A DNA stretch of 64,000 nt from Acetobacter lambici (GTDB taxonomy: Bacteria; Pseudomonadota; Alphaproteobacteria; Acetobacterales; Acetobacteraceae): NCBI RefSeq assembly GCF_011516885.1, contig NZ_WOTD01000007.1, positions 1-64,000 of the forward strand, given 5' to 3'. The notes beneath the pieces were generated by a model. That model ran no database searches. It worked only from the letters and a program-made list of their open reading frames with translations, and was not told where the DNA came from. A program made the translations under genes and the position numbers. Within the stretch, counting starts at the first letter, position 1. Every line of letters begins with the position of its first letter. Below are positions 5,654 to 60,800 of this stretch, in pieces.

Positions 5654-5654
5654 A

Positions 5655-5683
5655 GCCTGCACGGCTCCCCGCAGGTCTGTTTT
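5655..5683 (+). terminator. Weak terminator-like hairpin after the small membrane protein
   Basis: CCTGC (5656-5660) pairs with GCAGG (5671-5675) around a 10-nt loop, followed by TCTGTTTT. The stem is short but immediately follows the stop codon. Confidence 0.35.
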
Positions 5684-5911
5684 CATGGTGCATGGGAGGG
5701 GCGTTGCCTGCGCCATACCCGCTGCACATGCAAAGTGCCTCTACCCGGCCAGTCCGGCGGTTTACGGTCCGTCAAATCTGGTGCGGGCAGCATAGATCCG
5801 AATAAAAGCCAGCCTTCGCACCAGTCGTGCGTGGGCTCTTTTTTTGGTGATGGCTTTTTTTTGTTATTGCACTACGCTCGCCTCGTTTCTCATCACATGC
5901 GAGAGGTCCTC

Positions 5912-6694: not shown

Positions 6695-6720
6695 CGCGCG
6701 GGCCCAGAACACCCGGTCAC

Positions 6721-6761
6721 AAAAACCCCCGCCAGAGCAGGTCTCTGGCGGGGGTTTTTTT
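6721..6761. terminator. Strong bidirectional intrinsic terminator
   Basis: A 12-bp stem CCCCCGCCAGAG (6726-6737)/CTCTGGCGGGGG (6743-6754) has a 5-nt loop, an A-run on the left (6721-6725) and a T-run on the right (6755-6761). It sits between the convergent acetoin reductase and purF genes and can serve both strands. Confidence 0.93.
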
Positions 6762-6811
6762 ATCATGTGGCCGCAGGCAAGGCCCAAGGCCGCCAGGGTA
6801 GGTCGCGTGGC

Positions 6812-8299: not shown

Positions 8300-8345
8300 A
8301 AGCGCGCAGGGCCTCCGCAAATGGCTGGTACTGGCCGTATGGGGA

Positions 8346-8870
8346 TTACAAGGTGGCGTCATGACCTGTTGGACGCTTTGGCGCAACCCCTTTTGCGTCA
8401 AATTCAGCCAGATAAGGGTGGATATAGGTTGTTGCGGCGCGAATATAAGGGGTCAGTCGCCCATGTGCCTCTATGGCTGCCATGTCCTCGGGCTCCAAAA
8501 GCCATTGCCCGGCCATAAACAGCAGCACCACCACGCACGCCCCGCGCACCAGCCCGAACAGCCCGCCCAGCGTGCGGTCCAGCCCGTCCAGCGGTGTTGC
8601 GCGCACCAGACGCACCACCAATGCCGCCAGCAGATACCCCGCGACCAGAAAAAACAGCAGCACCAGCGCAAAGCTGGCCAGTTGCAACCCCGTGGGGGAG
8701 TGGATGAACCGCGCAAGCCAGAGCACGGGCACGGAATGGAAGCGAAAAGCCAGCACAAACGCCACGGCCCAGCTGAGTAGGCCCAGCGCAAGCTGCGTAA
8801 ATCCCCGCCACAGCCCATGCAGGGTGGAAAGGGCCACAATTGTCAGGGATATTGCATCAATGGCTGCCAT
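8346..8870 (-). CDS. cvpA: CvpA family membrane protein
   Basis: This protein of about 174 residues has four hydrophobic segments, the family pattern of short loops with Gly/Arg-rich turns (LDRTLGGLFGLVRG), and a soluble C-terminus. CvpA is linked to colicin V production and envelope homeostasis and is often found just upstream of purF, as here (46-bp gap). ATG 8870 (MAAIDAIS) is preferred because CvpA proteins normally begin right at the first membrane helix; an in-frame GTG at 8894 would add eight residues. Confidence 0.85.
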   Translation of the reverse strand: MAAIDAISLTIVALSTLHGLWRGFTQLALGLLSWAVAFVLAFRFHSVPVLWLARFIHSPTGLQLASFALVLLFFLVAGYLLAALVVRLVRATPLDGLDRTLGGLFGLVRGACVVVLLFMAGQWLLEPEDMAAIEAHGRLTPYIRAATTYIHPYLAEFDAKGVAPKRPTGHDATL

Positions 8871-36887: not shown

Positions 36888-38199
36888 AGTGCGTGCCAGT
36901 GCCAGTGCCAGTGCCAGTGCCAGTGCCAGTGCTCTGTGTGCCGCTGGTTGCTCTGGCCTGCGCCAGCCCCCACCCGACCATAAGGAACACCCATCCCGCA
37001 GTGCGCTCGGTAAAGAGGGAACTGGTTGAGGCAAGCGGCCAGAACAGCATGCACAGCGTAATAAAGAGCATGGACGGCATAAGCTCCTTGCTGGCAAGGG
37101 CTGCCAGAAACAGCGTTTTCCACCAGATCAGAACGGTGCAGACAAACAGCAGCAGACCGGCCAACCCCGCCGTGGTGGCGATTTCCAGATAAATGTTGTG
37201 TGGGTGAATGTTGCACCCTGTCGCAATTTCCTGCCCTGCGACTAGGTGGGCAAATTGCGGTATGCCATAGACATAGGTTGTCTCGGCGCAGTGCGCGCGA
37301 AAACCGTTATACCCCACACCGAGCAGGGGGTGGGCGTGGACCATGTTGAGCGCGCGCATATAAATCTGGCCATAGGCAGATTGCGAAAAATGCCCGATCT
37401 GCTGCACAAAATGCAGTACCAGCTTGTCATAGGCCGGGGGGGAGAGGAAGGGCAGAAGGGCCAGACCGACAAACCCGGACAAGGTGGCCAGAATAACCGG
37501 CACTCTGGTTGTTTTGACCAGCAAGGCACACAGGAAAAACCCAAAAAGCACAAGGAGTGCGGGCATTCTTTGCCCGATAATGACCATGGTCAGCAGCAAA
37601 AAGGACATAACGCCCAATGCGAGCAGTTTTTTGCCGGGTTCCTTAGCCTGCACCATGCGCATGGGGTAGATCATTAATCCGGGGAACATAATGACCATAA
37701 GCGGTGGCCCGGCGCGTGGTTCAAAAAAAGGGCCGGTCAGAGCGCCATCTTTCCAGCGGGCATATCCCCAGATATTGACCCCGAACAGATACTGCTCCCA
37801 GCACTGGCTGATCAGCCAGACCCCGGCCAGCGTTACACTCAGGCCAAGCCACTGCTGTTTTTGTCTGCTATCAAGCAGCCATTCCTCCAGTGCTTTGGCA
37901 AAAACAAAGTACCGCACGAGTGCAATAGATTCCATAAGGGTATGTGCGGACCCGTTGAGTGTGGAAGATACAACAATAAGCCCCCACAAACCCATGGCAT
38001 ATGGGAACCATCCGTGCAGCAGGCAGTAATAACGTTTGTTAAAAAATGAGTGCAGTAAAAAACTTATTCCAATGAACAGAATAATCAGATCGGCTATGGC
38101 ACGGCCCCGTAACTGAAAAAAGGGCAGAAAGACGCAGAGTACGAAAGCAAGTTTTTTTAAATTTGCATCACAGAACATAAAAATGTTTTTCACGGTCAT
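36886..38199 (-). CDS. O-antigen ligase/polymerase family membrane protein (WaaL/Wzy-like)
   Basis: A 437-residue integral membrane protein with 10 or more hydrophobic segments and a large periplasmic loop containing LNMVHAHPLLGVGYNGFRAHCAE ... CNIHPHNIYLEIATTAGLAGLLLF. The HPHNxYLE motif is the hallmark of the Wzy_C/O-antigen ligase superfamily, which transfers or polymerises undecaprenyl-linked glycans in the periplasm. ATG 38199 has GGAG upstream; an in-frame TTG at 38214 is less likely. The C-terminus is a (Thr-Gly) repeat encoded by hexamers. Its place inside the motility cluster suggests a role in surface or appendage glycans, which is inference. Confidence 0.85.
   Translation of the reverse strand: MTVKNIFMFCDANLKKLAFVLCVFLPFFQLRGRAIADLIILFIGISFLLHSFFNKRYYCLLHGWFPYAMGLWGLIVVSSTLNGSAHTLMESIALVRYFVFAKALEEWLLDSRQKQQWLGLSVTLAGVWLISQCWEQYLFGVNIWGYARWKDGALTGPFFEPRAGPPLMVIMFPGLMIYPMRMVQAKEPGKKLLALGVMSFLLLTMVIIGQRMPALLVLFGFFLCALLVKTTRVPVILATLSGFVGLALLPFLSPPAYDKLVLHFVQQIGHFSQSAYGQIYMRALNMVHAHPLLGVGYNGFRAHCAETTYVYGIPQFAHLVAGQEIATGCNIHPHNIYLEIATTAGLAGLLLFVCTVLIWWKTLFLAALASKELMPSMLFITLCMLFWPLASTSSLFTERTAGWVFLMVGWGLAQARATSGTQSTGTGTGTGTGTGTH
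36895..36930 (-). repeat. Hexanucleotide repeat (GCCAGT)6 in the ligase-like gene
   Basis: Six perfect tandem copies of GCCAGT (ACTGGC on the coding strand) encode alternating Thr-Gly at the extreme C-terminus, directly before the stop. A 6-bp unit keeps the frame, so copy-number changes would only change tail length. Confidence 0.95.
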
Positions 38200-42040: not shown

Positions 42041-43633
42041 ATGGAAGAGATCTGGGAACCAGCAAAGGCCAATATGCACAAGCTGATGGCGCGCAAAAAA
42101 GCCGTTATGCTGGCCCCCACTCCAGCCAGCGTTGGGGCGCTGTGCGAGGCATTCTGCGCGGGTAGCCTGCCGCATGAGGCTGTGACCCTTTCGCTCGAAA
42201 TGGTGCAGCGTGAGCCTGATAACCCGCATTATCTGTTAATTGCGGCGCTGGTTCTGACCAACCATGTTTTTCGGTACGATATTGCCGCCGCCCTGCTGCG
42301 CAAGCTTGCACTGCTGGAGCCAGATAATTATGGGGTCAAAATCCTGCTGGCGCAGGCTCTGATCGTTAATGGTGATCTGGCCGGAGGGTCGGGGATTTTT
42401 GCCGAGGTGATCAAGCGTTATCCCGAGCAGCGTGTGTTTTCGGCCCTTCAGATCTCCCAGATATTCATACGCATGGGCTACCCAAGGGAGGCGCTGGATA
42501 TTCTTCTGTTTGCTGTTCAGCTCGAACCTTCCAACCCCATGCTCTATAATACCATTGGCTGTGCGCTGGGGTGCCTGAACCGTTCGGATGAGGCCCGTCC
42601 GTGGTACGAACAGGCCCAACGCATGGCCCCCGAGGACGAGGGCGTTCTGCTCGGCCATACTATGGTCCTGCTCAAAAGCGGGCATTATGGCAAGGGCTGG
42701 GAACTGTTTGCCCAACGGCGCAACAAGTTAACGGCTGTGACCAAATGGTTCGGCCAGTTCCCCCAACTCCAGTGTGGTGATGTGGTCGCGGACAAAACCA
42801 TTGCCCTGTATCAGGAGCAGGGGCTGGGGGACACGCTTCAGTTCATCCGCTTCGCCGCGATTTTGGTGGAGCGGGGCGCGCGGGTTACGGTTGCGGTCGG
42901 GGCGGAAATGGTGCGCCTGCTGAGTATGTCCTGCCCGGACCTGATCGTGCGGGACGTGGCGCAGTTGGTTCTTGATGAGACGTTTGATTACGTTCTGCCC
43001 ATTCCCAGCCTGCCGTGTGTTACCAACATGCAGACCATTGCGGATATTCCCGGCACGGTGCCCTACCTGCGGGCGGACCCGAAGGATGTGGCGCGGTTTG
43101 CGGGCCGGTTGCCTGCGCGTGGTCCGCGTATTGGCCTTGTCTGGTCGGGAGATAGGCGGACCAATGCGGTGGACGTTATGGCCGACCAACTCCGTTCCAC
43201 CACGCTGGCGGTCATGGGGGCGGCACTGACCCCGGTGGATGCAGCACTTGTTTGCCTACAGTTCGGCAAACCGCGGGAAGATATGGAGAACTGGCACGGT
43301 CAGCCGCTTTGCGACCCCATGGGGGAGGTCAAGGATATGGCCGACACCGCCGCGATCATAGAAAATCTGGATCTTGTCATTTCGGTCGACACCTCCGTCC
43401 TGCATCTGGCGGGTGCTCTGGGCAAGCCGGTGTGGCTGCTCAGCCGGTGGGATGCATGCTGGCGGTGGGGGGAGGCGGGGGACACGTCGCCTTGGTACCC
43501 CTCCTTGCGTATTTTTCGGCCGCAGGAACGTTCGTTTCAGCCGGTGCTGGAGCAGATGGGGCAGGCTCTGCGGGCATGGGTGGGCGCGTGGCATGCGGCG
43601 CACCCACAGGGGACGCAGGCCACGTCCCTCTGA
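42041..43633 (+). CDS. TPR protein with C-terminal glycosyltransferase-like domain, copy 1
   Basis: A 530-residue protein. Residues about 35-245 form TPR-type helical repeats (LSLEMVQREPDNPHYLLIAALVL; ALDILLFAVQLEPSNPMLYNTIGCALGCLNRSDEARPWYEQA). The C-terminal half is a GT-B/GT9-like domain with LYQEQGLGDTLQFIRF, PRIGLVWSGDRRT and VISVDTSVLHLAGALGKPVWLL. Such TPR-glycosyltransferase fusions are known in alphaproteobacteria; Caulobacter FlmG, a TPR-GT fusion of another GT type, glycosylates flagellins. The start has AAGG upstream. It is followed by a paralogue 29 bp later. Acceptor specificity is unknown. Confidence 0.8.
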   Translation: MEEIWEPAKANMHKLMARKKAVMLAPTPASVGALCEAFCAGSLPHEAVTLSLEMVQREPDNPHYLLIAALVLTNHVFRYDIAAALLRKLALLEPDNYGVKILLAQALIVNGDLAGGSGIFAEVIKRYPEQRVFSALQISQIFIRMGYPREALDILLFAVQLEPSNPMLYNTIGCALGCLNRSDEARPWYEQAQRMAPEDEGVLLGHTMVLLKSGHYGKGWELFAQRRNKLTAVTKWFGQFPQLQCGDVVADKTIALYQEQGLGDTLQFIRFAAILVERGARVTVAVGAEMVRLLSMSCPDLIVRDVAQLVLDETFDYVLPIPSLPCVTNMQTIADIPGTVPYLRADPKDVARFAGRLPARGPRIGLVWSGDRRTNAVDVMADQLRSTTLAVMGAALTPVDAALVCLQFGKPREDMENWHGQPLCDPMGEVKDMADTAAIIENLDLVISVDTSVLHLAGALGKPVWLLSRWDACWRWGEAGDTSPWYPSLRIFRPQERSFQPVLEQMGQALRAWVGAWHAAHPQGTQATSL

Positions 43634-46422: not shown

Positions 46423-46926
46423 GCGCGGTGTGGCGGGGGGCCGGGGTGGAGCTGGCTCCGGGCGGCGGGTCCCTTACCTCCTTGGCTGGTGTGGCTCTAT
46501 GGCAGTCATGGCCCGACTATACAGGGCGGCACGCAAGTAATGGCGGGCTTGCCCGGTCGGTTCTATACATGGCTGTATGCCTGCCGCACCGATCGTGCAA
46601 GGATTCATGTCCTTAACATCATGCCATGTCTGGTCTGGCCAAAGTATGGCGTGGCGCGGGTGGGGCATGGTTTTTTTTGCAGCCTCCGGCGTGCTGCCTG
46701 ATTAATGTCATGATTTTGCATGATCTTTGGCGGGTTATGTCTCCACCCGCGTGCAAGCACGTGCGCCACCGGGGTGGAGGTTGGGCAAAAAAGGCTTTTG
46801 GGCATGGGCTGCGGCAGGTTACATGGGCATTGAATGTAATGGCCAGCGCGCCTATTCTTATGGCACAAGGTTACGTGATGACCCTGCACTGTGTGCCGGG
46901 CTGATCAATCAGGGGTAAACAGGTAT
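46423..46926. other. Divergent control region between the transglycosylase and flgI
   Basis: About 500 bp with no supported gene. It contains a TATGGCACAAGG string at 46859-46870 related to one upstream of fliF, and a T-run at 46671-46678. Promoters for both divergent genes must lie here, but I could not assign a clear -35/-10 or -24/-12 pair. Confidence 0.5.
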
Positions 46927-48147
46927 ATGAGGAACCGCCTCAAGGCGAGCAACGGGCAGGCCGGCATGGCCCGCCAGCATGGTGGCAGGGCGGCCCCTTT
47001 GTTGAACCCAATGGGCCGCGTTTTTGGCGCGCCACGGTGGGTCCGGGCTGTTATGGCCGCCTTTATCCTGCTCTCCCTGTTTGTGCCGGTATCCCCCGCC
47101 CACGCCATTACGGTGCGGGTGAAGGATATTGTTGATTACGAAGGCGTGCGGGACAACCAACTGGTCGGTTACGGGCTGGTCGTGGGCCTGCATGGCACGG
47201 GCGACCGTCTGACCAACATCATATTCACGCGTGAAACACTGATCAGTATGCTCAACCGTCTGGGCGTGAACATTCGTGACCGCGAAATCCAGTTGCAGAC
47301 GCATGACGTGGCCGCCGTTATGGTCACCGCCACACTGCCCCCGTTCTCCCATGGGGGCGGGCGGATTGACGTAACCGTTTCCGCCGTGGGTGACGCACAG
47401 GACCTGACCGGGGGCACCCTGCTGGTCACCCCCCTACAGGCAGCCGATGGCGAGGTTTACGCCGTGGCGCAGGGATCGCTTGTGACCAACGCCTTTACGG
47501 CGGGCGGGCAGGCGGCCACGGTCACGCGTAACATTCCGACCAGCGGGCATATTGCCAATGGCGGGGTGGTCGAACGTGAGGTGCCGGTCAAACTGGGCGA
47601 GACGGGGGTTGTCCATCTCTCGCTCCACAATCCTAATTTTACCACCGCGACCCGTGTGGCCGAGGTGATCAACCGCAGCATTGGCGCGCATATGGCGCAG
47701 GTGGATGACCCGCGCACCATTGCCGTGGACCTGACCGGGCGCAACGCATCGCTCACCCTGTACCGTATTGGTGACCTCCAGATCGAGCCGGATACCATGG
47801 CCAAGGTTGTGGTGGACGAGGCCAGCGGTACTATTGTTATGGGTGATAGCGTGCGCATCAGCACTGTGGCCATTGCGCAGGGCAACCTGACCATTCAGGT
47901 GACCGAAACTCCGCAGGTGGTCCAGCCAGCGCCCTTCTCTAACGGCGTGACCGCCGTTGTGCCACGGACAGAAGCCAATGTGAGCACGGATAGCTCGCAC
48001 AGGCTGGGTATTCTGCGCGAGGGACCAACACTGGCCAGCCTTGTGGCGGGCATGAACGCGCTGGGCATGGGCCCGCGTGACATGATTGGTATTTTGCAGG
48101 CCATCAAGGCCGATGGCGCCCTTCAGGCCGATCTGGAAGTAAGGTAG
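46927..48147 (+). CDS. flgI: Flagellar P-ring protein FlgI
   Basis: A 406-residue FlgI. After an extended basic leader, a signal sequence (AVMAAFILLSLFVPVSPAHA) is followed by the diagnostic VRVKDIVDYEGVRDNQLVGYGLVVGLHGTGD and ITRETLISMLNRLGVNIRD-type region, and the C-terminus ends GMNALGMGPRDMIGILQAIKADGALQADLEVR. It forms the P ring in the periplasm with help from FlgA. Shorter starts within the leader (for example the Met just before AAFILL) are possible. First gene of flgI-flgJ-flgN. Confidence 0.95.
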   Translation: MRNRLKASNGQAGMARQHGGRAAPLLNPMGRVFGAPRWVRAVMAAFILLSLFVPVSPAHAITVRVKDIVDYEGVRDNQLVGYGLVVGLHGTGDRLTNIIFTRETLISMLNRLGVNIRDREIQLQTHDVAAVMVTATLPPFSHGGGRIDVTVSAVGDAQDLTGGTLLVTPLQAADGEVYAVAQGSLVTNAFTAGGQAATVTRNIPTSGHIANGGVVEREVPVKLGETGVVHLSLHNPNFTTATRVAEVINRSIGAHMAQVDDPRTIAVDLTGRNASLTLYRIGDLQIEPDTMAKVVVDEASGTIVMGDSVRISTVAIAQGNLTIQVTETPQVVQPAPFSNGVTAVVPRTEANVSTDSSHRLGILREGPTLASLVAGMNALGMGPRDMIGILQAIKADGALQADLEVR

Positions 48148-48154
48148 GCACAGC

Positions 48155-48499
48155 ATGAGCACGGTAGCCAACGTAAGCGCGGCCCAGATTGCCAGCGCGC
48201 AGACCACCGCCTCCACCCAGTCCGGGTTGAAGGAGGAAGTGCTGGAAAAAACCCGCAAGGCTGCCATCGAGTTCGAAGGCATGACCATTGGCGAAATGCT
48301 CCAGCCGATGTTTGATACGGTGGATAGCGCCCACGGCCTGTTTGGCGGCGGTGCCGCCGAGTCCCAGTTCCGCTCCCTGCAGGTGCTGGAAATGGGCAAG
48401 CAGATTGCCAATAATGGCGGCATTGGTCTGGCCGACAGCGTTTACCGCCAGATGCTGGCCATGCAGGAAAAAGCCCAGCAGGAAAAAGGTGAGTCATGA
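48155..48499 (+). CDS. flgJ: Rod-binding protein FlgJ (single-domain form)
   Basis: The 114-residue protein is only the N-terminal FlgJ/rod-binding domain: KAAIEFEGMTIGEMLQPMFDTV ... FGGGAAESQFRSLQVLEMGKQIANNGGIGLADSVYRQML. The muramidase domain of enteric FlgJ is absent, as in other alphaproteobacteria. It acts as rod cap. Its stop overlaps the next gene by 4 bp (ATGA). Confidence 0.9.
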   Translation: MSTVANVSAAQIASAQTTASTQSGLKEEVLEKTRKAAIEFEGMTIGEMLQPMFDTVDSAHGLFGGGAAESQFRSLQVLEMGKQIANNGGIGLADSVYRQMLAMQEKAQQEKGES

Positions 48500-48924
48500 C
48501 CGATAAGCCTGAAGACCTGCAAAGCCGCCTGTTGCAGGCATTTGGATCCGTAAGTGCCCTGCTGGAGCACGAAAACACGCTGCTCAAAACCGGTCAGTGG
48601 CAGGATGTGGAAAAACTGCTGCCGCGCAAGCGTGAGCTTATGGATGTGTTGCGCAAGCTGCTCCCACCGGGGCAGACCAAGCCGCTGACCGCCGAACAGC
48701 GCAGCGCCAAGGTTGAGCCGGACATGGAAGCAGCCGCCAAGCAGTTTAATGCTCTGGTGCGCGCCAACGAGGAACTGCTGCAAAGTGCCATTGCCGCGCA
48801 GGGTACGCTGATCAAACTTGTGCTCGATGATGCGGCACAGGAGCAGCGCACTGGCTATGGCGCATCGGGTGGCTATACGCTGGACCCCCACGCCGGAGCA
48901 CTGGCGTTGCGGAGCGACGTATAG
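48496..48924 (+). CDS. flgN: FlgN-like export chaperone
   Basis: A 142-residue helical protein with the FlgN pattern (LLQAFGSVSALLEHENTLLKTGQWQDVEKLLPRKRELMDVLRKLL, then a central amphipathic helix with ANEELLQSAIAAQGTLIKLVL). FlgN protects FlgK and FlgL before export. Overlap with flgJ supports cotranslation. Sequence identity of FlgN proteins is always low, so the call rests on length, helix pattern and position. Confidence 0.72.
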   Translation: MTDKPEDLQSRLLQAFGSVSALLEHENTLLKTGQWQDVEKLLPRKRELMDVLRKLLPPGQTKPLTAEQRSAKVEPDMEAAAKQFNALVRANEELLQSAIAAQGTLIKLVLDDAAQEQRTGYGASGGYTLDPHAGALALRSDV

Positions 48925-49508: not shown

Positions 49509-50210
49509 TCAGGCCGCGTCTGTCATGCACAGCGGCGGCACGCAGACAAACGCCTTCATGGTTGAATAATGCAGGCTCATCAACTGCGGGAGCGTTTGCG
49601 CGGCAGTGCCGCCATCCTGTGGGTTGGCCGCGGGTACGGTTGTGCTGGTCAGCGGCAGGCAGGCCTTGATCATTTTTTCCGCCCCCGTGGGGGAGATGGC
49701 GTAGCCGCTCACGCTCTGCGTGGCCAGCAGCGGGAAGGCAAGGGAGGTGACTTCCATCTCGCTCAGCGCACCCGCGCCACGGGCGGAATAGGGGGGCTGC
49801 ACCGCGCCGTTGAACAGGGCCAGCTCGGGCAGGACATCAAACTGCAACGTGGAGCCGGGTGTGTTGCCCCACAGCACAAAGTCCCAGTCATGCGGCAGGC
49901 TGGCCAGAATGCGCGTGCTTTCGGCCTCAAAATTGGCGCACAGCACGGCGTTGCTTTCAAACACATGGGCGGCGGTCTGGTGCTGGGCCACATTGCCCCA
50001 CAGCGAGACATGCGACAGGGCCTGTGCAAAGGCCGCGTGCGAGAACAGACATTCGGCCGAGATCAGGTTCATCTGCTTCATGGCCTGCACGTCCAGCGCC
50101 TGCTCGTCCATGCCGATGGAACGCACAAGGTCTGGCACATGGGCATTCAGTTGCAAGAACCGCTCTGTCTGGTTGAGTGCTGCATCGTTGCTGATGAAAA
50201 ACTTGAACAT
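49509..50210 (-). CDS. Glycosyltransferase family 25-like protein
   Basis: The 233-residue product resembles GT25 (LPS beta-galactosyltransferase-like) proteins: NLISAECLFSHAAFAQALSHVSLWGNVAQ follows the S-E-x-G-C-x-x-S-H-x-x-x-W pattern of the nucleotide-sugar site, and LPHDWDFVLWG matches the next conserved strand. The LEDD acidic motif expected between them is not clear (VFESNAVLC), so catalytic competence is uncertain. It is transcribed with the downstream lipoprotein gene. A surface-glycan or flagellar-glycan role is possible. Confidence 0.6.
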   Translation of the reverse strand: MFKFFISNDAALNQTERFLQLNAHVPDLVRSIGMDEQALDVQAMKQMNLISAECLFSHAAFAQALSHVSLWGNVAQHQTAAHVFESNAVLCANFEAESTRILASLPHDWDFVLWGNTPGSTLQFDVLPELALFNGAVQPPYSARGAGALSEMEVTSLAFPLLATQSVSGYAISPTGAEKMIKACLPLTSTTVPAANPQDGGTAAQTLPQLMSLHYSTMKAFVCVPPLCMTDAA

Positions 50211-50349
50211 CTATGGTTCCTGTCGGGTGGCGAGTACAAAAAATGCGCTCACAGATCGGGCGCATTGGGGGGCAGGCGCGGTCATGAGCAGAATACAACA
50301 ACCATGACGGAACCAAATTTTGAGCAAAGGATACGGCAGAGTAGGGCGC

Positions 50350-50502
50350 ATGAAAAGCCTAGACCTGTCACCAGACACGCAGGGGTATATTCCTGTGGCT
50401 TTGTTGGGTGCAAAATCGTATAATGGAGTGGAATACATATTTGTTTGGGGCCAGCAGGCAGTAACCGCTACGTTGGCAAAAGCACGTAAAGGATTGGATT
50501 GA
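50350..50502 (+). CDS. 50-residue microprotein translationally coupled to the DUF1217 gene
   Basis: The frame encodes MKSLDLSPDTQGYIPVALLGAKSYNGVEYIFVWGQQAVTATLAKARKGLD in total, with an extended N-terminal half rich in aromatic residues and a short basic C-terminal helix. Its TGA overlaps the next gene's ATG (TGATG), the classical coupling layout, and AAAGGA inside its end serves that gene. A weak AGGG precedes its own ATG 50350; an in-frame ATG/GTG further upstream at 50320 lacks support. No family is recognised. A chaperone or regulator of the downstream repeat protein is an inference. Confidence 0.5.
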   Translation: MKSLDLSPDTQGYIPVALLGAKSYNGVEYIFVWGQQAVTATLAKARKGLD

Positions 50503-52658
50503 TGAGCATTAGCGGTATCTCGCCGGTAAGCCAGTATCTGACGGCCCTGAAAAATGAAGATACCGCAGCCTCCACCTTTGCTAAAACGGATGTGACCACC
50601 AAGCAGGCCTCGGTCGCGTTTGAGGAAGATGCCTCGTCCATCACTACCGTTGATGGGCTGATGAAAAATTATTCGGCTCTGAACGTGGTGCTGGGCGCGT
50701 ATGGCATGGATTCGTATTCCTCCGCCACGGCGCTGGTCAAAAAGCTGTTGACGCAGGACCCGTCCTCCTCCTCGTCGCTGGCCAAGTCGTCCAGCAACGC
50801 CACGTGGCTGGCCTTTGCCGATGCGTTTAAAACATGGGGGGAAGGCGGGGGCACCGTGCAGACATCGCCGCTCACATCCTCTTCCATCTCCTCCATTATC
50901 AACGAATACGAAAGCGATACGGACACGTCGGTCCAGAGCGATATTTCGACGTTCAAACTCGCAGCCCCCGGCATTACCACCGCCTCTGCGCTGCTGGCCA
51001 ATACAACTGTGCTCAATGTTGTTCTGAGTGCGTATGGCATGGATGCGCTGGAGGGAGACACCGCGGTCCTGAGTTCCCTGCTGACGCAGGACCCGTCCTC
51101 CTCCACATCACTGGCGCAAACATCGGGTAACTCCGCGTGGCAGATGTTCGCCTATGCTTTTCAGGACATGGGCAAAAACGGCGGTACGGCCACAGCCACG
51201 CCCTTTACCTCCAGCGTTATGACCACCATAGCGCAGGGGTACCAGATTGCTGTTGATTCGGCGGTGGATACGAACGTCAATACGTTCAAGGCGCAGGCGA
51301 GCACCATGACCTCGGCCTCCGATCTGCTGAACAACCAGACCGTCCTGTCCATGGTTATGTCCACCTATGGGCTGGATTCCAGCACGGACAACGCCAGTAT
51401 TCTGAGTTCCCTGCTGACGCAGGACCCCACGTCCTCCACATCGCTGGCCCAGACGTCGGGTAACGCGGCGTGGCAGACCTTTGCCGAGGCGTTTAAAAAT
51501 CTTGGCCAAAATGGCGGTACGGCTACCTCAACGCTGTTTACATCTGCAACCATTGCCGACATTGCCAGCAAATATTCCGATGCCATTGATGATGGGGCTA
51601 CCAGCGCCATTAGCTCGTTCAAAAGCGATGCGGCGGGCATTACCTCCGCGTCCGCCCTGCTGAATAACAGCACGGCCCTGCAGGTTGTGCTGGGGGCCTA
51701 TGGTCTTGGCTCGCTTGCGTCCGACCCCGCCGTGGTCAAGACCCTGCTGACGCAGGATCCCGATTCCTCCACATCACTCGCTCAGACATCGGGCAATACG
51801 GCGTGGCAGACTTTTGCCGAGGCATTTAAAGCATGGGGGCAAAACAACGGGCAGGGGGCAATTATGTCCACCTCCTTTGTGGCGTCGCTCACATCGGCCT
51901 TCCAGTCCAACACCAATGCGCTGGTGCAGTCGGGCGTAACGAGCTTTGAAAATGCGGCCGGTTCCATTACCACGGCGTCCGCTCTGCTGGCCAATACAGC
52001 CGTGCTTAATGTTGTGACCGGTGCGTATGGCATGGATGCATCGAGCAATGAACTCACCCTTCTGAGTTCCCTGCTGACGCAGGATCCGGCATCCTCCACA
52101 TCGCTGGCGAGTGCTTCGAGTAATGCGTCCTGGCAGAGTTTTGCCACGGACTTCAAGGTCTGGGGAGCAAACGGCGGGAGTGTGAGCGCAACACCGTTCA
52201 CGGCCACAAAAATTCAGAGCATCGTGGAAGATTACCAGTTGCGCCAGTACGAGGATAGCTCGGCTCTAAGTGATAATGGCGTGGGTAACGCGCTGTACTT
52301 TACCCGCACCATGAGCAGCATTACGTCCCTGTCGCAGCTTATGTCGGACCCGACCCTGCTCAAGGTGGCGGAGACCGTGTCGGGCTATGACCCGGACCAG
52401 TTTGGCGCGCTGGACTATGACCAGCAGGTGCGTCTGTTGTCCAAAAAAGTGGACCTGACCAAGCTGTCCACGCCCAAGCAGATCCAGCAGTACGCGGAGC
52501 AGTATCTGGCCATGTTACAGATCAACCCGCAAACGCCGGACACCCCCGCCAGCCTGCTTGACCTGTTTGGTGGGGATGACAGTGACGATGGCATTCTCGC
52601 TCTGTTTGGGGATAGTAGCGACGATTCCTCGGGCGATCTTTATTCCAGCCTGTTCTAG
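50502..52658 (+). CDS. Long DUF1217-type repeat protein of the flagellar cluster
   Basis: A 718-residue Ser/Thr/Ala-rich protein built of five near-identical units of 111 residues, each with a core of the form LLxNxxxLNVVLxAYGMD...LLxxLLTQDPSSSTSLA..SxNxxWQxFAxAFK.WG, and a sixth diverged unit (LMSDPTLLKVAETVSGYDPDQF) before an acidic Asp/Ser tail. The repeat matches DUF1217, a family often found in alphaproteobacterial flagellar loci. No signal peptide or membrane helix is present, so export by the flagellar system is plausible. ATG 50502 has AAAGGA 8 nt upstream; TTG 50499 is an alternative. Function unknown. Confidence 0.75.
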   Translation: MSISGISPVSQYLTALKNEDTAASTFAKTDVTTKQASVAFEEDASSITTVDGLMKNYSALNVVLGAYGMDSYSSATALVKKLLTQDPSSSSSLAKSSSNATWLAFADAFKTWGEGGGTVQTSPLTSSSISSIINEYESDTDTSVQSDISTFKLAAPGITTASALLANTTVLNVVLSAYGMDALEGDTAVLSSLLTQDPSSSTSLAQTSGNSAWQMFAYAFQDMGKNGGTATATPFTSSVMTTIAQGYQIAVDSAVDTNVNTFKAQASTMTSASDLLNNQTVLSMVMSTYGLDSSTDNASILSSLLTQDPTSSTSLAQTSGNAAWQTFAEAFKNLGQNGGTATSTLFTSATIADIASKYSDAIDDGATSAISSFKSDAAGITSASALLNNSTALQVVLGAYGLGSLASDPAVVKTLLTQDPDSSTSLAQTSGNTAWQTFAEAFKAWGQNNGQGAIMSTSFVASLTSAFQSNTNALVQSGVTSFENAAGSITTASALLANTAVLNVVTGAYGMDASSNELTLLSSLLTQDPASSTSLASASSNASWQSFATDFKVWGANGGSVSATPFTATKIQSIVEDYQLRQYEDSSALSDNGVGNALYFTRTMSSITSLSQLMSDPTLLKVAETVSGYDPDQFGALDYDQQVRLLSKKVDLTKLSTPKQIQQYAEQYLAMLQINPQTPDTPASLLDLFGGDDSDDGILALFGDSSDDSSGDLYSSLF
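50745..52085 (+). repeat. Tandem 333-bp repeats within the DUF1217 gene
   Basis: The string CTG(C/T)TGACGCAGGA recurs at 50745, 51078, 51411, 51744 and 52071, i.e. with a period of 333, 333, 333 and 327 bp, together with similar flanks in each unit. Such long direct repeats can recombine and change unit number in frame. Confidence 0.9.
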
Positions 52659-52666
52659 GCAAGGTG

Positions 52667-52693
52667 GCCCCACCCGCATGACGGGGGTGGGGC
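52667..52693 (+). terminator. GC-rich hairpin between the DUF1217 gene and fliI
   Basis: GCCCCACCC (52667-52675) pairs with GGGTGGGGC (52685-52693). There is no T-run; it may attenuate transcription or protect the upstream mRNA. Confidence 0.5.
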
Positions 52694-52724
52694 AGCATAA
52701 CCCCGCATCTGGTTTGTTGTTGAC

Positions 52725-54149
52725 GTGAGTTCGGACCCGCATTCCCCCTCGCCTGTTGAGGTCTCCGTATCCGCCCTATCAGGCGTGCTGGACGCGGTGC
52801 GTGGCGCCATTGCCGGCCCCCGGCATGACGTGCCGGTGGGTGTGCTGGAGGGGCGGGTGACCGGGCTTTCGGGCTTGTCGGTCTCGCTCAGCGGGCTGCG
52901 TGATTTTACGGGTGTGGGCGACCGCGTGACCATTTATGGGCTGGATGGGCGGCAGACGCAGGCCGAAATTGTGGCCTTTGCGCAGGATATTGCCATTGCC
53001 ATGCCCTTTGGCTCGCTGGAGGGCATTGGCTCGGGGTGCCGCGCGACCTTCCGGCTGTATGATCAGGAGCAGCGCCGCCGCCGGGCGGGGGGCACGCTCA
53101 TTGTCAATGCTGGGTGGCAGGGCCGGGTGGTGGACCCCATGGGCCGCCCGATGGATGGCAAAGGCCCGCTTCCGTCCGAAGGCACGGCCCAGCGGCTCCA
53201 TGCCTCCCCGCCAGAGGCCGCCATGCGTGGCCGCCTTGGCCCGCGCATAGACCTTGGGGTGCGCGCACTCAACCTGTTTACCACCTGCCGCGAGGGCCAG
53301 CGCCTTGGCCTGTTCGCAGGCTCGGGCGTGGGTAAATCCACCCTTATGGGCATGCTTGCGCGTGATACGGCATGCGATGTGGCGGTCATTGCGCTGGTGG
53401 GCGAACGTGGGCGTGAAGTGCGCGAGTTTGTGGAGGATGATCTGGGGCCGGAGGGGCTGGCCAAGTCCGTTGTGGTGGTCGCCACGTCCGATACATCCCC
53501 CCTTATGCGGCGTGAGGCCGCTTATGCCGCCATGGCCGTGGCCGAGCACTTCCGTGATCAGGGCAAATCGGTGCTGATGCTGATGGATAGCGTGACCCGC
53601 TTCTGTCAGGCATTGCGAGAGATCGGTCTGTCCTCGGGCGAGCCACCGGCCACGCGCGGCTATCCGCCCAGTGTGTTTGCTGAACTCCCCCGCCTGCTCG
53701 AACGCGCAGGCCCGGGCCTGATGGACGAGCACGGCCATGCAGGGCAGATGACGGCCATGTTCTCCGTACTTGTGGAAGGCGATGACCAGAACGAACCCGT
53801 GGCCGATGCCGTGCGCGGTATTCTGGACGGGCATGTGGTGCTGGAGCGCCGCATTGCGGAATCCGGGCGTTACCCTGCGGTCAACGTCCTGCGCTCGCTC
53901 TCGCGCACCGTGCCGGGATGCCTGACGGAGGAGGAGAACCAGCTTGTGCTGCAAGCGCGCTCCTGCCTGTCCACATGGGATGAGATGCAGGATATGGTGC
54001 GCCTTGGTGCGTACCGCCCCGGCAACGACCAGCGCGTGGACGAGGCCATTCGCGTGGCTCCCGCGGTGGAGGAAATGCTCAAGCAGCGCAAGGGCGAACG
54101 CGCGACCCTGCCTGAAAGTTTTGATGCTCTGCGCGGCGCGCTATCGTAG
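52725..54149 (+). CDS. fliI: Flagellar export ATPase FliI
   Basis: A 474-residue F1-beta-like ATPase. The Walker A motif GSGVGKST is at 199-206, VGERGREVREFVED follows, Walker B is in SVLMLMDSVTRF, and the C-terminal LVLQARSCLSTWDEMQDMVRLGAY is typical of FliI. It powers export with FliH and FliJ. The start is GTG 52725; the first 35 residues are variable. fliJ follows after 10 bp. Confidence 0.96.
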   Translation: MSSDPHSPSPVEVSVSALSGVLDAVRGAIAGPRHDVPVGVLEGRVTGLSGLSVSLSGLRDFTGVGDRVTIYGLDGRQTQAEIVAFAQDIAIAMPFGSLEGIGSGCRATFRLYDQEQRRRRAGGTLIVNAGWQGRVVDPMGRPMDGKGPLPSEGTAQRLHASPPEAAMRGRLGPRIDLGVRALNLFTTCREGQRLGLFAGSGVGKSTLMGMLARDTACDVAVIALVGERGREVREFVEDDLGPEGLAKSVVVVATSDTSPLMRREAAYAAMAVAEHFRDQGKSVLMLMDSVTRFCQALREIGLSSGEPPATRGYPPSVFAELPRLLERAGPGLMDEHGHAGQMTAMFSVLVEGDDQNEPVADAVRGILDGHVVLERRIAESGRYPAVNVLRSLSRTVPGCLTEEENQLVLQARSCLSTWDEMQDMVRLGAYRPGNDQRVDEAIRVAPAVEEMLKQRKGERATLPESFDALRGALS

Positions 54150-54159
54150 CTGAACACCC

Positions 54160-54585
54160 ATGAGCAGTGCGCGAATCCGCTCCCTTAAAGCGCTTATCCG
54201 TGTGCGCAAAAAAGAGGTGGACGAGGCCCGTGCAGGCATGTCCCGCGCGCTGGCGGCCGAAAACGCGGCCATGACCGAGCTTGAGCGGCAACTGACCCAG
54301 ATTGAAGTGGAGCGTGACGAGGCCGAGGGCGATGCCGGGCGGGAGACCTTCCGCCTGTGGCTGCCTGTTGCGCAGGAGAACCTGGCGCGGGCGGAAGATG
54401 TGGTGCGCAAGACCCGCAACGATTCCATGCGTGTGCGGGAGGAGCTGATACAGGCCAACGCCGCCTTCAAGGCCGCGCAGACCCTGCTTGACAAGCGCGA
54501 GGAGGAGGAGCGTGTTCTACAGGCCCGGCGCGAACAGGCCGAACTGGACGATCTGGCCCGGCGCGCCCGCCCGTTTTTTTTGTAA
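54160..54585 (+). CDS. fliJ: Flagellar export protein FliJ
   Basis: A 141-residue, almost wholly helical, charged protein with two long antiparallel coiled-coil segments (LIRVRKKEVDEARAGMSRALAAENAAMTELERQL and ENLARAEDVVRKTRNDSMRVREELIQANAAF...EEEERVLQARREQAELDDLARR). This is the FliJ (F1-gamma-like) layout, and it follows fliI directly. It couples the ATPase ring to FlhA. Confidence 0.85.
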   Translation: MSSARIRSLKALIRVRKKEVDEARAGMSRALAAENAAMTELERQLTQIEVERDEAEGDAGRETFRLWLPVAQENLARAEDVVRKTRNDSMRVREELIQANAAFKAAQTLLDKREEEERVLQARREQAELDDLARRARPFFL

Positions 54586-54780: not shown

Positions 54781-55545
54781 ATGCAACAGACAGCGCAGCA
54801 ACCCGCAAAAATTTTTATTGCGACCCCCTGTTTTGGTGGGATGGTTACGCAGGAGTATATGGAATCCATCATTGCATGCGCCGGAGTGCTTCAGGTCCCC
54901 ATGACCCTCTCCCTGTTGGGGGATGACGCCATGATCAGCCGCGCGCGCAACACCCTTACGCATAAATTCCTCACGCTGTCTGACGCAACGCATCTTTTGT
55001 TCATTGATGCCGATATCGGCTTTCCGGCCGAAGCTCCCGCCCGCCTGCTGGCCGCTGGCAAGGATGTGGTGGCCGGTGCCTACCCGATCCGCGAATATTT
55101 CTGGGACAAAACCACGCAGGAAAACATGCTGCATGGTGAGCCGCAGGACACCGCCTCCCTCCGTTATGTGGGCGAGACGGAGGCCATGCACCAGCAGATT
55201 GAAAAAGGGCCAATGGTCAAAACCCATTACGCGGGTACGGGGTTCATGCTCATCAGCCGCACCGCACTTGAGCGTATGGTCAAAGCCTACCCCGAGACCG
55301 CCTATACCCGCATAGACGCCGCTAACGGCGAGACAGGCAGCACCGCCCACGCTCTGTTTGACGGCAGCATTGACCCCGAAACCGGAACCTATCAGAGCGA
55401 GGACTTTACCTTCTGCCGCCGCTGGCGCGAAATTGGGGGCGAAGTCTGGCTGGATACATCCATCAATCTGACACATGCAGGCCGCGCCGCGTTCCACGGC
55501 AAGCCGGGCTGCCGTGTTGGCATGGTTCACCACAAGGGCGCCTAA
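54781..55545 (+). CDS. GT-A-fold glycosyltransferase-like protein
   Basis: A 254-residue soluble protein. It opens with KIFIATPCFGG and has a DxD motif D76-A-D78 in HLLFIDADIGFPAEAPARLL, followed by DVVAGAYPIREYFWD and, near the end, SEDFTFCRRWREIGGEVWLDTSINLTHAGR, which looks like the acceptor-side ED and His residues of GT2-like enzymes. It sits alone between fliJ and motB, with a 195-bp leader containing the nested stem-loop. Acceptor unknown; flagellar-protein or surface glycan modification is possible. Confidence 0.7.
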   Translation: MQQTAQQPAKIFIATPCFGGMVTQEYMESIIACAGVLQVPMTLSLLGDDAMISRARNTLTHKFLTLSDATHLLFIDADIGFPAEAPARLLAAGKDVVAGAYPIREYFWDKTTQENMLHGEPQDTASLRYVGETEAMHQQIEKGPMVKTHYAGTGFMLISRTALERMVKAYPETAYTRIDAANGETGSTAHALFDGSIDPETGTYQSEDFTFCRRWREIGGEVWLDTSINLTHAGRAAFHGKPGCRVGMVHHKGA

Positions 55546-57836: not shown

Positions 57837-57884
57837 GCGTAGGATAATGTTGGCGGCCGCACCGCTGGCGGGATGGAGGACGTA

Positions 57885-59957
57885 ATGGGTATCAAGTCTA
57901 CAAATGCTTCGAACCTGAGCGAAAGTGCACAGGAAACGCCTCTGTCCTCCCTGTTGGCCGCCATTGCGTCACGCAGCACCACGGGGGTTTCCTCCCCCAC
58001 TACGCAGAGCAGTGGCTTTGCTGCCGTGCTCAAAAGCATGTCCGCCCCCGCCACCACCACGCAGGCCCGTGCCGCCAGCACGCAGCAGAGCGCCACCAGC
58101 GCATCCAGCTCCAGCGCAACACAGACGGATACGGACAACACGGCCGATACCGCCGACCAGACCAGCCAGTCCGGCAGTACCCCTGCTGCGCGGGCCAGCA
58201 CAACGGCGGATACAAAGTCCACCAAGTCCCACGCCACAGCGAACAAAACTACCAGTAAAACCGCTAGTGGCGCCAAGGCCACAGACCAGTCAGACAAGGC
58301 CCAGAGTGCCGCCAAAGCCCGGAAAATCCAGTCCGACACCAGTGATGACGACACCACGCCGACGACAGCCAGTACCACGGATGCCACCACCACGGCCGAT
58401 GCCAGCCAGAGCGTTCAGGACGCAACACCCCTGAGCATGGCCGAAACCCTGATGCAGATGCTCTTGCAAAGTGCCGCCAGCATGCCGGTGCAAACCCAGA
58501 GCACAGCGGGGGATACAGCCGGGAGCAGTGGCAGTAGCGACAGCGCATCCGCCACGGCCAGCACAACGGACGCCACGCAGGCTGCAACAGCACTTGCCGC
58601 CACGTTGGCCGCAGCCGAGCAGGCAGGAGGGGGGCAGGGTGTAACCTCCGCGACCAATACATTGCAGAACATGTTGAACACTACCGTGGATTCGCTTGCG
58701 GCCATGGGGCTGGGTGCGGGGCAGAGTGGTTCCCTCTCGCTCACCGCCGGGTTGTCCGGGGTTGCCACGGCGTTGGCCTCGGCTTTGGCCCAGCCCGCAA
58801 CGAGTGCCACAGGGGCAGGTCTTGCCAGCGTTTTGCAGGATATGGCCACCACGCAGGCACAGGCTGGCGTGGCATCGGCTGTGTCGGTGCCCGTGGCGCA
58901 GAGCACGCCTTTGGAGCAACTGGCGGGTAGTATGGCCACCAGTAAGGCTGCCAGCGGTGCGGTCGGGGTGTCCGCCGCAGGTGGGGCAGCTGCTCAGGTA
59001 TCGGGCACGCAGGCGGCTTCCACCGGCACTACGGACACGGAGCAGCAGGTGGCGTTAACGCTCCAGCAGGTTGCCGCGTCCATGAGCAATGTGAGCGTTA
59101 CCCAGTCCCCGCAGCAGGCAACGCAGGCCGCGGACGAAGCGAATGGCACCCCCCTGAATGCCACCAGCCTGACCCCCGATGCCACAACCGCCATGGTGGC
59201 GCTGGGCAGCACAGTGCAGGAATCCACGGCTCAGGGGCAGTCCGCTTTTTCCGGGCAGTCCGGTAACGGTGGGGGGGAAGAAGGGCAGGCCATGCTGGCC
59301 GATGGTACAGCGCAGGCCGGCACGCTGGCGCAGAATGCCGTGGCGCAGGGGGCTTCCTCCTTTGCGTCCACACTGGGTACGGCGCTGGGTGGGAATAGTG
59401 GTCAGACAACTGCATCCGCGCAGACCCCGGCTGCCAATACTGTGACGACCGAAGACGAACAGACAGGTGGCCTGTTCTCCCTCGCCAGTACGGGAAGTGG
59501 CGATACGGATGTTTCCATGACCGTCATGACCGCCGATTCCACACCCGTGCATGTGCGCGTGCAGGGGGCTGATGGCGTGACCACAGGTGTTGTTCTGCAA
59601 AGCGAGGACGCCGCAACCGCGCACCATTTGGCCAACACACGGCACGAGCTTGTTGCAGCATTGGATGCGGCGGGTGTAAACGTAGGACAGATCAAGATTG
59701 ATGTTGTGAACCCGAGTGACACGGGCAACAGCACCTCCCAGCAGGATACCGGCAGTGGTGCGGCCTCCGGTGGAGCGTTTGGGGGGGCAAATACCAGTGC
59801 GGGGCAGGGCAGTGGCCAGCAGACAGGCGGTAACGCATGGACTGCCAGTGCCTCATCCGCAGGGCAGGATGTGACGGATGCCGCAGCGCAGGGCAGCAGT
59901 ACGGCGGCTTCTGCCACGCGCGCATATGATGGACGTGGGGTTAACATTACCGCCTGA
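57885..59957 (+). CDS. fliK: Flagellar hook-length control protein FliK
   Basis: A 690-residue protein of extreme Ser/Thr/Ala/Gln composition. The C-terminal Flg_hook domain (about 520-610) is recognisable in VHVRVQGADGVTTGVVLQSEDAATAHHLANTRHELVAALDAAGVNVGQIKIDVV. The disordered N-terminal part is the ruler. ATG 57885 (MGIKSTNAS) has GGAGG 5 nt upstream; an in-frame ATG at 57873 precedes that site. It is followed by flgD after 39 bp. The size is much larger than enteric FliK (about 400 aa). Confidence 0.88.
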   Translation: MGIKSTNASNLSESAQETPLSSLLAAIASRSTTGVSSPTTQSSGFAAVLKSMSAPATTTQARAASTQQSATSASSSSATQTDTDNTADTADQTSQSGSTPAARASTTADTKSTKSHATANKTTSKTASGAKATDQSDKAQSAAKARKIQSDTSDDDTTPTTASTTDATTTADASQSVQDATPLSMAETLMQMLLQSAASMPVQTQSTAGDTAGSSGSSDSASATASTTDATQAATALAATLAAAEQAGGGQGVTSATNTLQNMLNTTVDSLAAMGLGAGQSGSLSLTAGLSGVATALASALAQPATSATGAGLASVLQDMATTQAQAGVASAVSVPVAQSTPLEQLAGSMATSKAASGAVGVSAAGGAAAQVSGTQAASTGTTDTEQQVALTLQQVAASMSNVSVTQSPQQATQAADEANGTPLNATSLTPDATTAMVALGSTVQESTAQGQSAFSGQSGNGGGEEGQAMLADGTAQAGTLAQNAVAQGASSFASTLGTALGGNSGQTTASAQTPAANTVTTEDEQTGGLFSLASTGSGDTDVSMTVMTADSTPVHVRVQGADGVTTGVVLQSEDAATAHHLANTRHELVAALDAAGVNVGQIKIDVVNPSDTGNSTSQQDTGSGAASGGAFGGANTSAGQGSGQQTGGNAWTASASSAGQDVTDAAAQGSSTAASATRAYDGRGVNITA

Positions 59958-59996: not shown

Positions 59997-60800
59997 ATGT
60001 CCACGACATCACTGACAACAAACGAGTACACCCTGCTCTCGGCAGCAGAATCGACGGCCAAAAGCTCCGCGGCTACGTCCAGCTCGACGTCTTCTTCCAC
60101 GTCGTCCACCTCGTCGACGGCGGCCCTGTCCTCGCTTGCTGATAACTACACCACGTTCCTGACCCTGCTGACCACGCAGCTCCAGCATCAGGACCCCAGC
60201 AGCCCCATGAGCAGTGACTCGTTCACCAGCGAACTGGTGGAGTTTGCCGGGGTGGAACAGCAGGTGCAGACCAATACCAAGCTGTCCTCGCTTATTTCGC
60301 TCAACGAGAGCGGGCAGCTCAGTGCGGACAGTGCGCTTGTTGGCTCGCAGGCCACGGCCACCACCACCACCCTGCCGTTGCAGAACAGCTCTGCCACACT
60401 CAACTATCAGGGCACATCGGGGCAGACCGTGGCTATTGCCGTGTCCAATTCCGCTGGCACCATTGTCAAGGACGATCTGGTTACCGCCAGCAGCGGCACC
60501 AACACCTGGACATGGGACGGCACGGACAACAGTGGCAACAAGCTGTCCGATGGGGCTTACAGCGTTGCGGTCAAGACCATGGATTCGTCGGGTAACACGT
60601 CCGATGCTTCCTTTACGGTTACGGGCACCATTACCGGCATCCAGACCGGTACGGACGATATGGAAGTGCAGATGGGTGGGGCCACCATCCCCATGAGCAG
60701 CCTTATCAACGTGTCCAAGTCTTCCACGTCGTCCACAACCTCGGATACATCGACCTCGTCGGATACAGATGCGGATACGTCTTCCTCGACCGGGTCGTAA
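59997..60800 (+). CDS. flgD: Flagellar hook scaffold protein FlgD
   Basis: A 267-residue FlgD: a Ser-rich N-terminus, the diagnostic FLTLLTTQLQHQDPSSPMSSDSFTSELVEFAGVEQQVQTN, a tudor/FnIII-like core with NTWTWDGTDNSGNKLSDGAYSVAV, and a C-terminal Ser/Thr/Asp tail. It caps the hook during assembly; FlgE lies elsewhere. A clear terminator follows. Confidence 0.95.
   Translation: MSTTSLTTNEYTLLSAAESTAKSSAATSSSTSSSTSSTSSTAALSSLADNYTTFLTLLTTQLQHQDPSSPMSSDSFTSELVEFAGVEQQVQTNTKLSSLISLNESGQLSADSALVGSQATATTTTLPLQNSSATLNYQGTSGQTVAIAVSNSAGTIVKDDLVTASSGTNTWTWDGTDNSGNKLSDGAYSVAVKTMDSSGNTSDASFTVTGTITGIQTGTDDMEVQMGGATIPMSSLINVSKSSTSSTTSDTSTSSDTDADTSSSTGS

Follow-up and report, generated by a model that had tools for sequence, protein, structure and literature searches.

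DUF1217 (PF06748) is a known Pfam family without an assigned function, and members with several units are common. We take the family to be COG5460 and presume that SMc03023 is its Sinorhizobium gene. In the accessible parts of the sources SMc03023 is listed among flagellar genes of unknown function (PMC2848241), and the mentions of DUF1217 that were found are passing ones, for example in a Brucella table that gives MotA, DUF1217 (unknown), FlgF and FliI in that order (PMC7410920). The open-licence literature searched yielded no report of hook or rod domains within DUF1217 proteins and no paper on 2O8S with Agrobacterium. Genes of the family sit in alphaproteobacterial flagellar clusters without an assigned function, and the domains inserted at one junction of their products make export and membership of the flagellum a concrete question. 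Here we analyse such a gene in 64,000 nucleotides of Acetobacter lambici (assembly GCF_011516885.1, contig NZ_WOTD01000007.1, positions 1 to 64,000, forward strand), a stretch that we call the window. A preliminary description, made from its letters, had suggested that a repeat-bearing DUF1217 protein and a 50-residue microprotein encoded just upstream might form an undescribed flagellar component. Undescribed holds for the function of DUF1217; it does not hold for the family, which is in Pfam, or for its multi-unit form.

Judging from domain architecture, we lean towards the view that the protein is exported by the flagellar route and ends up as part of the rod-hook-filament axis or fastened to it; its helical ends would be the conserved portion and its middle one that can be exchanged and expanded. 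Of the readings considered, this one has the best support, chiefly from the hook and rod domains found in relatives at a single junction.

The repeat protein and the junction shared with its relatives

The frame is open from a TTG (50499-52658, +, 719 codons); counted from the ATG at 50502 the protein has 718 residues, and the stop is a TAG at 52656-52658. Five stretches match PF06748 at 267.5 bits, against a curated cut-off of 22.9. A six-frame search of the source genome at an expect value (E) of 0.001 returned five DUF1217 stretches, all within this frame, and no second DUF1217 gene. In the following list units 1 to 4 are defined by self-alignment, anchor motifs and a PF06748 match each.

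50502..52658, +, DUF1217 repeat protein, 718 aa, five PF06748 matches, total E 4.6e-80
50619..50951, +, unit 1 (residues 40-150)
50952..51284, +, unit 2 (residues 151-261)
51285..51617, +, unit 3 (residues 262-372)
51618..51944, +, unit 4 (residues 373-481; 109 aa to the next anchor)
51945..52277, +, unit 5 (residues 482-592), defined by self-alignment and anchors; a full PF06748 match (residues 508-660) begins here
52299..52517, +, diverged sixth unit, the C-terminal half of DUF1217 (about residues 600-672), defined by alignment and the 2o8s match

The five 111-residue units and the diverged sixth of the preliminary description are borne out by these matches, by the self-similarity of the protein, which peaks at lag 111 (score 1.00; lags 20-399 average -0.52 with an sd of 0.15, and the peak lies about 10 sd higher), and by LLTQDP-type anchors at residues 81, 192, 303, 414 and 523 (0-based), spaced 111, 111, 111 and 109 apart. 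A full-length match at residues 508-660 and the alignments identify the sixth unit as the ordinary second half of the DUF1217 domain. The reported 333-bp period of the DNA exists as an identity peak (43% at lag 333 against a background of 25.6%, sd 2.4%), but it is inexact and Tandem Repeats Finder calls no array in the gene; these are therefore old protein repeats, and a young DNA repeat array was rejected. Two further remarks also proved correct: the protein is rich in Ser and Thr (27.7%), and its N-terminus, read by eye and with no signal-peptide tool run, has no visible hydrophobic export signal. That DUF1217 proteins are usually shorter is true in part, since across the family the shortest open frames have about 250 aa and the longest 1137 aa, and at least two DUF1217 matches occur in 18 of the 39 positive genomes of a phylum sample, the window's included; such matches do not always belong to one gene, and in G445 and G460 they are two halves of one domain. 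Within the repeat protein the Pfam search gave no match to FliD_N or FliD_C and found no Flg_hook (PF02120), the FliK-type domain; weak matches to VCIP135_N, SUS_EPBD and TIGR02452 fell under their own cut-offs and were taken as chance.

What occupies the middle of a DUF1217 protein? In the window protein the extra units lie between a FAxAFxxWG helix and a YQLRQYE helix; single-unit relatives have nothing at this junction. In Gluconacetobacter the DUF1217 proteins, of 581-592 aa, align with that of the window only in their two ends, and between these they carry the hook domain FlgE_D2 (PF07559), over the cut-off in L057 (E 2.2e-10, two stretches), L058 (4e-6) and G002/L039 (4.5e-7). These three are fliI-adjacent orthologues, with FlgE_D2 inside the DUF1217 domain. 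In G002 the genome search recovered FlgE_D2 in the same 587-aa frame (1.1e-8), and L059 and L060 are 98% and 79% identical to L057. NCBIfam assigns the L057 insert to FlgE at 5.1e-12, under the full-length cut-off of that model. The AlphaFold2 model of L057 is poor (mean predicted local distance difference test score 43.6; block means 45-79 over residues 141-280), and a structure search with it placed solved FlgE D2 structures at ranks 1-7 (best 6ndx, E 1.4e-6; six below 0.001; rank 7 at 8e-3). Hook protein and DUF1217 protein meet in the orthologues, which carry D2 where the window protein holds its extra units; they differ in that the window protein has no FlgE domain and its genome encodes FlgE_D2 separately (G000:C7:69734-70057, E 1.0e-5).

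Two other families of the class Alphaproteobacteria provide further cases. L083 has FlgE_D2 (6e-7), and L087 has the rod/hook D1 domain of FlgE/F/G (PF22692, 6e-10; NCBIfam FlgG 3.6e-19, under the full-length cut-off), a domain of the distal rod protein FlgG that is found in this DUF1217 protein and not in that of the window. In L087 and L083 these domains are followed by DUF1217 positions 52-149 and 50-149. Elsewhere the halves of the domain enclose 4.4 copies of a 495-bp repeat (L118, in G460; 5582-8695, -) or, in the same genus, one insert of a kind similar by eye (L119, in G445; 5819-6856, +); a Flagellin_IN match in L118 is below the cut-off. The large proteins L090 (7866-10202, +) and L103 (8451-10892, +) have weak Flagellin_N, flagellin or FlgL matches at about residues 450-545 (E 1e-4 to 8e-3, below the cut-off), which may reflect coiled-coil bias.

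In the model of the window protein the unit is all-helical, and successive units are connected by helices of 30-32 residues. Model quality is good for units 2 and 4 (block means 76-89) and uneven for units 1, 3 and 5 (about 37-88). The predicted template modelling score is 0.36, so that the arrangement of the beads carries no meaning, and most of residues 584-718 are unreliable. The solved DUF1217 protein 2o8s (Agrobacterium AGR_C_984) matches residues 482-692 strongly in sequence (E 2.8e-15). It also ranks first in both structure searches, but with a Foldseek E of 1.1e-2 (probability 1.00) and, in VIA (Z 10.5), with an alignment that runs over several beads at an rmsd of 39.8. The two proteins are alike in the sequence match and unlike in that the window protein has five units and the match to 2o8s covers one. 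All other Foldseek rows have E above 1, the VIA rows below rank 1 were taken as helical look-alikes, and no flagellar structures are among the rows shown for the window model by either program.

A model for the DUF1217 protein and the competing explanations

Based on these comparisons, we propose that the gene product would leave the cell through the flagellar type III export system and would be incorporated into the rod-hook-filament axis or fixed to it. The two helical ends that are conserved (unit 1 on one side, unit 5 and the diverged sixth on the other) may be an attachment module common to DUF1217 proteins, and the stretch between them an exchangeable, surface-type middle. In the Acetobacter clade this middle would have grown through tandem duplication of the protein's own unit into a chain of helical beads with connecting helices of about 30 residues; in Gluconacetobacter it would have received hook D2 domains at the same junction, and in single-unit relatives nothing would have been added. 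The promoter-like element that lies within the alleged small frame would start transcription, and the gene's own Shine-Dalgarno site would start translation. The role may be that of tuning the stiffness or the surface properties of the hook or filament, rather than basic assembly. The model starts from the observed architecture of the domains, from insertions that share one junction, from synteny with fliI and joint occurrence with FlgI, from a composition like that of FliK and FlgD and from a fixed unit number; what we infer is that the protein is exported and sits on the axis, that the promoter is active and that the protein has a tuning role. If the model is true, the protein is a new component of the alphaproteobacterial flagellum, and one scaffold accepts swapped hook, rod and other surface domains. 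The suggestion of a secreted structural part of the flagellum receives indirect support here, from hook FlgE D2 and rod/hook FlgG/FlgE D1 in relatives and from the likeness to FliK and FlgD in composition.

Composition was compared over 16 selected window proteins. The DUF1217 protein (27.7% S+T, 0.4% R, pI 4.1, no Cys) falls with FliK (29.5% S+T, 1.2% R, pI 4.1) and FlgD (41.2% S+T, 0.0% R, pI 4.1), both of which are exported in model bacteria; the other 13 have 7.1-15.0% S+T, 2.6-15.6% R and a pI of 4.8-8.7.

The family also keeps flagellar company. Among 25 genomes of the genus, the window's included, DUF1217 and FlgI each occur in 16, both in 15, neither in 8 and one only in 2 (G019, G011). 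Across the class, DUF1217 is found in 31 of 289 genomes and FlgI in 168, and 30 of the 31 DUF1217 genomes have FlgI (Fisher p 4e-7, relatedness uncorrected), so that in Alphaproteobacteria DUF1217 does occur with flagellar genes. In a phylum sample of 299 genomes all 39 positives belong to the window's class, the share of other classes among the 299 being absent from the listing. DUF1217 stands directly before fliI in named relatives (Acetobacter lovaniensis, two A. okinawensis, A. fabarum, A. syzygii, an Acetobacter metagenome-assembled genome and four Gluconacetobacter species) and in eight genus genomes (L034-L040, L043), four of which are the same genomes as named loci. Farther afield FliI lies near DUF1217 in L088, L093, L095 and L107. 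Frames named from their sequence starts extend the picture: DUF1217 is followed by flgF-like and fliI-like frames in L124, L127, L131 and L134 (L127 and L134 also have a divergent MotA-like frame), and it is accompanied by FlgK-, FlgL-, FlaF-, FlbT- and flagellin-like frames in L050, L096 and L102.

A number of observations weigh against an exported protein of the axis. In the window protein itself DUF1217 is the sole Pfam family over a cut-off, and no hook or rod body domain matches. FlgE_D2 was found in four and D1 in one of the 44 DUF1217 proteins scanned, a set that leaves out L046 (cut), L047, L051-L056, L059, L060, antisense frames, L093 and the L118-L137 proteins; L093 was scanned apart and eight of the L118-L137 proteins separately. 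L083 and L087 end at contig ends and cover only the C-terminal side of the junction. The association of DUF1217 with FlgI is not independent of phylogeny. In seven genus genomes (L041, L042, L044-L048) the DUF1217 gene is of the single-unit kind and away from flagellar genes: with 23 window proteins as queries, only DUF1217 matched within about 5 kb on each side (one side in L046). Flagellar neighbours are likewise not obvious by eye around the large members L049, L089, L091, L092, L100 and L103; in L090 a MotB/OmpA-type match lies about 7 kb from DUF1217. FlgJ, an export substrate in model bacteria, is unlike the DUF1217 protein in composition (14.9% S+T, pI 4.8), and S+T reaches 25-31% in DUF1217 members of the genus against 7-23% in other DUF1217 proteins; the point from composition therefore bears on this group only. 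Finally, the accessible part of a report on a ‘nearly saturating’ screen in Agrobacterium fabrum, with 37 motility genes, contains no named product described as DUF1217 (PMC9812332); the gene may be dispensable for swimming, or may have been missed by the screen.

Six of the seven genomes with a DUF1217 gene away from flagellar genes still have FlgI. Around that gene DsbA-like and decarboxylase-like frames were seen by eye in several of L041, L042, L044 and L046-L048. In L049 (3386-9326, -) two DUF1217 frames of 981 and 973 aa stand in tandem with a topoisomerase-like frame beside them, and flagellar genes are not obvious by eye.

Could the protein instead stay in the cytoplasm? As an export accessory it would bind FliI/FliJ or substrates in the manner of a chaperone or adaptor, with the repeats as binding beads. 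We hold this to be possible, if doubtful. It would suit the place immediately before fliI, and near flgF-fliI elsewhere, as well as the frames resembling FlaF, FlbT and flagellin beside the gene in L050, L096 and L102 and the predicted all-helical unit. However, a chaperone would hardly be expected to have relatives with hook and rod surface domains inside them, the composition is unlike that of FlgN, FliJ and FliI, and open frames of up to 1137 aa speak against such a function.

A surface or matrix protein that uses another export route and is co-inherited with the flagellar cluster, its repeats serving as a spacer or adhesin stalk, appears improbable to us. Large DUF1217 proteins away from flagellar genes and an S/T-rich, Cys-free, acidic sequence would be in keeping with it; the presence of FlgI in 30 of the 31 DUF1217 genomes, the flagellar domains in the inserts and the lack of a Sec signal visible by eye are not.

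A bolder version of the exported axial protein, to which we give little credence, would make DUF1217 an unrecognised alphaproteobacterial axial class, possibly a tip or junction protein that replaces the FliD cap where flagella have no FliD, with a middle swapped among hook, rod, unknown and self-duplicated domains. In its favour, FliD_C is rarer where DUF1217 is present (2 of 30 genomes with DUF1217 and FlgI against 56 of 138 with FlgI and no DUF1217; p 2e-4, relatedness uncorrected), after G050, G212 and G312 (FliD_C E above 1e-4, below the cut-off) were dropped and the FliD set fell from 64 to 61. FliD_N (PF02465) and FliD_C (PF07195) have no match anywhere in the source genome. According to PMC6913195, Rhizobiaceae lack FliD. 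Against a cap, FliD_C is also missing from 82 of the 138 genomes that have FlgI and no DUF1217, and the FliD-annotated gene listed for Brucella in the accessible part of PMC8781033 fits less well with a swap of DUF1217 for FliD. Since the accessible part of the Agrobacterium motility screen names no DUF1217 product (PMC9812332), the screen too argues against an essential role such as that of a cap, with the reservation that the gene may have been missed.

Unit number, the ruler and the small upstream frame

The preliminary description had called the protein length-variable and ruler-like. Neither term survives comparison of eight distinct five-unit Acetobacter-type proteins (L053/L034, L054/L037, L055/L036 and L056/L038, each pair from the same genome, were counted once). 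Anchor positions are identical in all eight, with the spacing of 111, 111, 111 and 109; length varies between genera. When all 40 units are placed in one tree, the eight copies of each of the five positions group as a separate clade with support of 0.98-1.00, and identity between species is 79-84% at the same unit position and 44-59% between different positions. By this comparison the unit duplications predate the split of these Acetobacter species, with no later homogenisation, and unit number is not strain-variable in the clade. A FastTree tree of the C-terminal domain, read without support values, unites the five-unit proteins in one clade and interleaves single-unit and hook-domain forms on other branches. 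A FliK-like ruler in which unit number sets a length is consequently very unlikely. Regular units and the range of sizes between genera might suggest one, and the protein shares with FliK its cluster and a similar composition; it differs from FliK in having no FliK domain and a fixed unit number, each unit position is monophyletic, a separate FliK-type gene (below the curated cut-off) lies about 5 kb downstream, and single-unit relatives are common. We rejected the ruler on the fixed unit number.

The upstream DNA of the same eight sequences was aligned, and the frame ending on the start codon was read in each.

50331..50359, +, second conserved block (ATACGGCAGAG...AAAGCC), upstream, from the alignment of 8 sequences
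50350..50502, +, alleged 50-codon microprotein frame, with a TGATG overlap with the ATG; rejected as a gene
50390..50424, +, promoter-like conserved block TTCCTGTGGCTTTGTTGGGTGCAAAATCGTATAAT, within the alleged small frame, from the alignment of 8 sequences
50488..50493, +, AAAGGA, Shine-Dalgarno-like, 8 nt before the ATG at 50502; the same in 7 of 8, one base off in L056

The 50-codon frame and its TGATG overlap are present as letters at 50350-50502; their status as a gene does not withstand comparison with relatives. A stop overlaps the DUF1217 start codon in seven of the eight sequences (L035 has none), because the bases that precede the ATG hardly vary. In four (window, L051, L052, L053) the frame stays open for at least 52 codons; it begins with ATG and reaches at least 50 codons in only two (window, L053), and it is interrupted in L054, L055 and L056. 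The conserved block stands at a distance of 110-115 nt from the ATG, all three remainders occurring, so that the block falls in different reading frames in different species. Three relatives, L052, L053 and L051, have a frame long enough for comparison past the block; there their peptides have 5%, 0% and 14% identity to that of the window, although their main DUF1217 proteins reach 84-87%. L051 and L052 share 52% of this peptide, and their DNA is also alike there. An ATG-started frame of at least 50 codons arises in 1.4% of mononucleotide shuffles of the region, a figure that alone neither proves nor excludes chance; the missing conservation of the peptide decides. The preliminary description had made its pair depend on the small frame and its coupling being kept in relatives, and among the eight sequences they are largely missing. 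Because the frame is shifted or interrupted in relatives, its peptide is not conserved and it covers conserved promoter-like DNA, the 50-codon frame is, by comparison of these sequences, almost certainly not a gene. Despite the existence of the frame, its overlap and the low shuffle figure, a translated microprotein that controls or chaperones the repeat protein is thus scarcely credible, the conserved letters being those of the promoter-like block in varying frames, and the proposed chaperone or translational regulator is a false lead, now removed.

What is conserved, then, is DNA. Within the longer block 18 contiguous bases (ATATTCCTGTGGCTTTGT) are invariant in the eight sequences, and the block ends in a TATAAT-like hexamer (TATAAT, TATGAT or TATACT). 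The second block lies 31-59 nt upstream of it. The first 24 positions of the block recur nowhere else in the genome, the only match at up to 3 mismatches being the block itself. We call it promoter-like because of its conservation and the TATAAT, not because of the sigma-70 promoter scan, whose sole match in 49900-52900 falls on the opposite strand and is no better than chance. Sigma-54 promoters have the spacing GG-N10-GC; by eye the block misfits, with a spacing of 11 instead of 10, and this assignment was rejected. The block would be the promoter region of a DUF1217-fliI operon.

The flagellar cluster around the gene

The remaining genes of the cluster are as follows.

46891-48147, flgI
48155-48499, rod-binding FlgJ type
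48496-48924, FlgN type, below the cut-off
52725..54149, +, fliI (flagellar export ATPase), next downstream of DUF1217; ATP-synt_ab 3.9e-82, T3SS_ATPase_C 2.1e-18
54160..54585, +, fliJ; PF02050 9e-7
54781-55545, +, frame labelled glycosyltransferase (GT)-like from sequence and position; no Pfam family
57873..59957, +, fliK type, a separate hook-length control protein about 5 kb downstream; PF02120 6.7e-6, below the curated cut-off
59997..60800, +, flgD (hook cap); PF03963 2.9e-19

Between the FlgN-type gene and DUF1217 stand a lipoprotein-like gene and a glycosyltransferase-25-like gene, both on the opposite strand and with no match over a cut-off. A MotB-type and then a MotA-type gene, named from sequence and position, follow the GT-like frame and precede the fliK-type gene. 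The named relatives preserve the order DUF1217-fliI-fliJ-GT-motB-motA to the extent that their loci cover it. The source genome has one Flagellin_N match.

Three glycosyltransferase-like genes lie among the flagellar genes: a tetratricopeptide repeat plus glycosyltransferase-9 protein (42041-43633, +), the weak glycosyltransferase-25-like gene, below the cut-off (49509-50210, -), and the GT-like frame at 54781-55545 (+). They may serve the glycosylation of flagellin. Farther upstream, 6.7 perfect copies of GTGCCA occupy 36893-36932, inside an O-antigen-ligase-type gene on the other strand.

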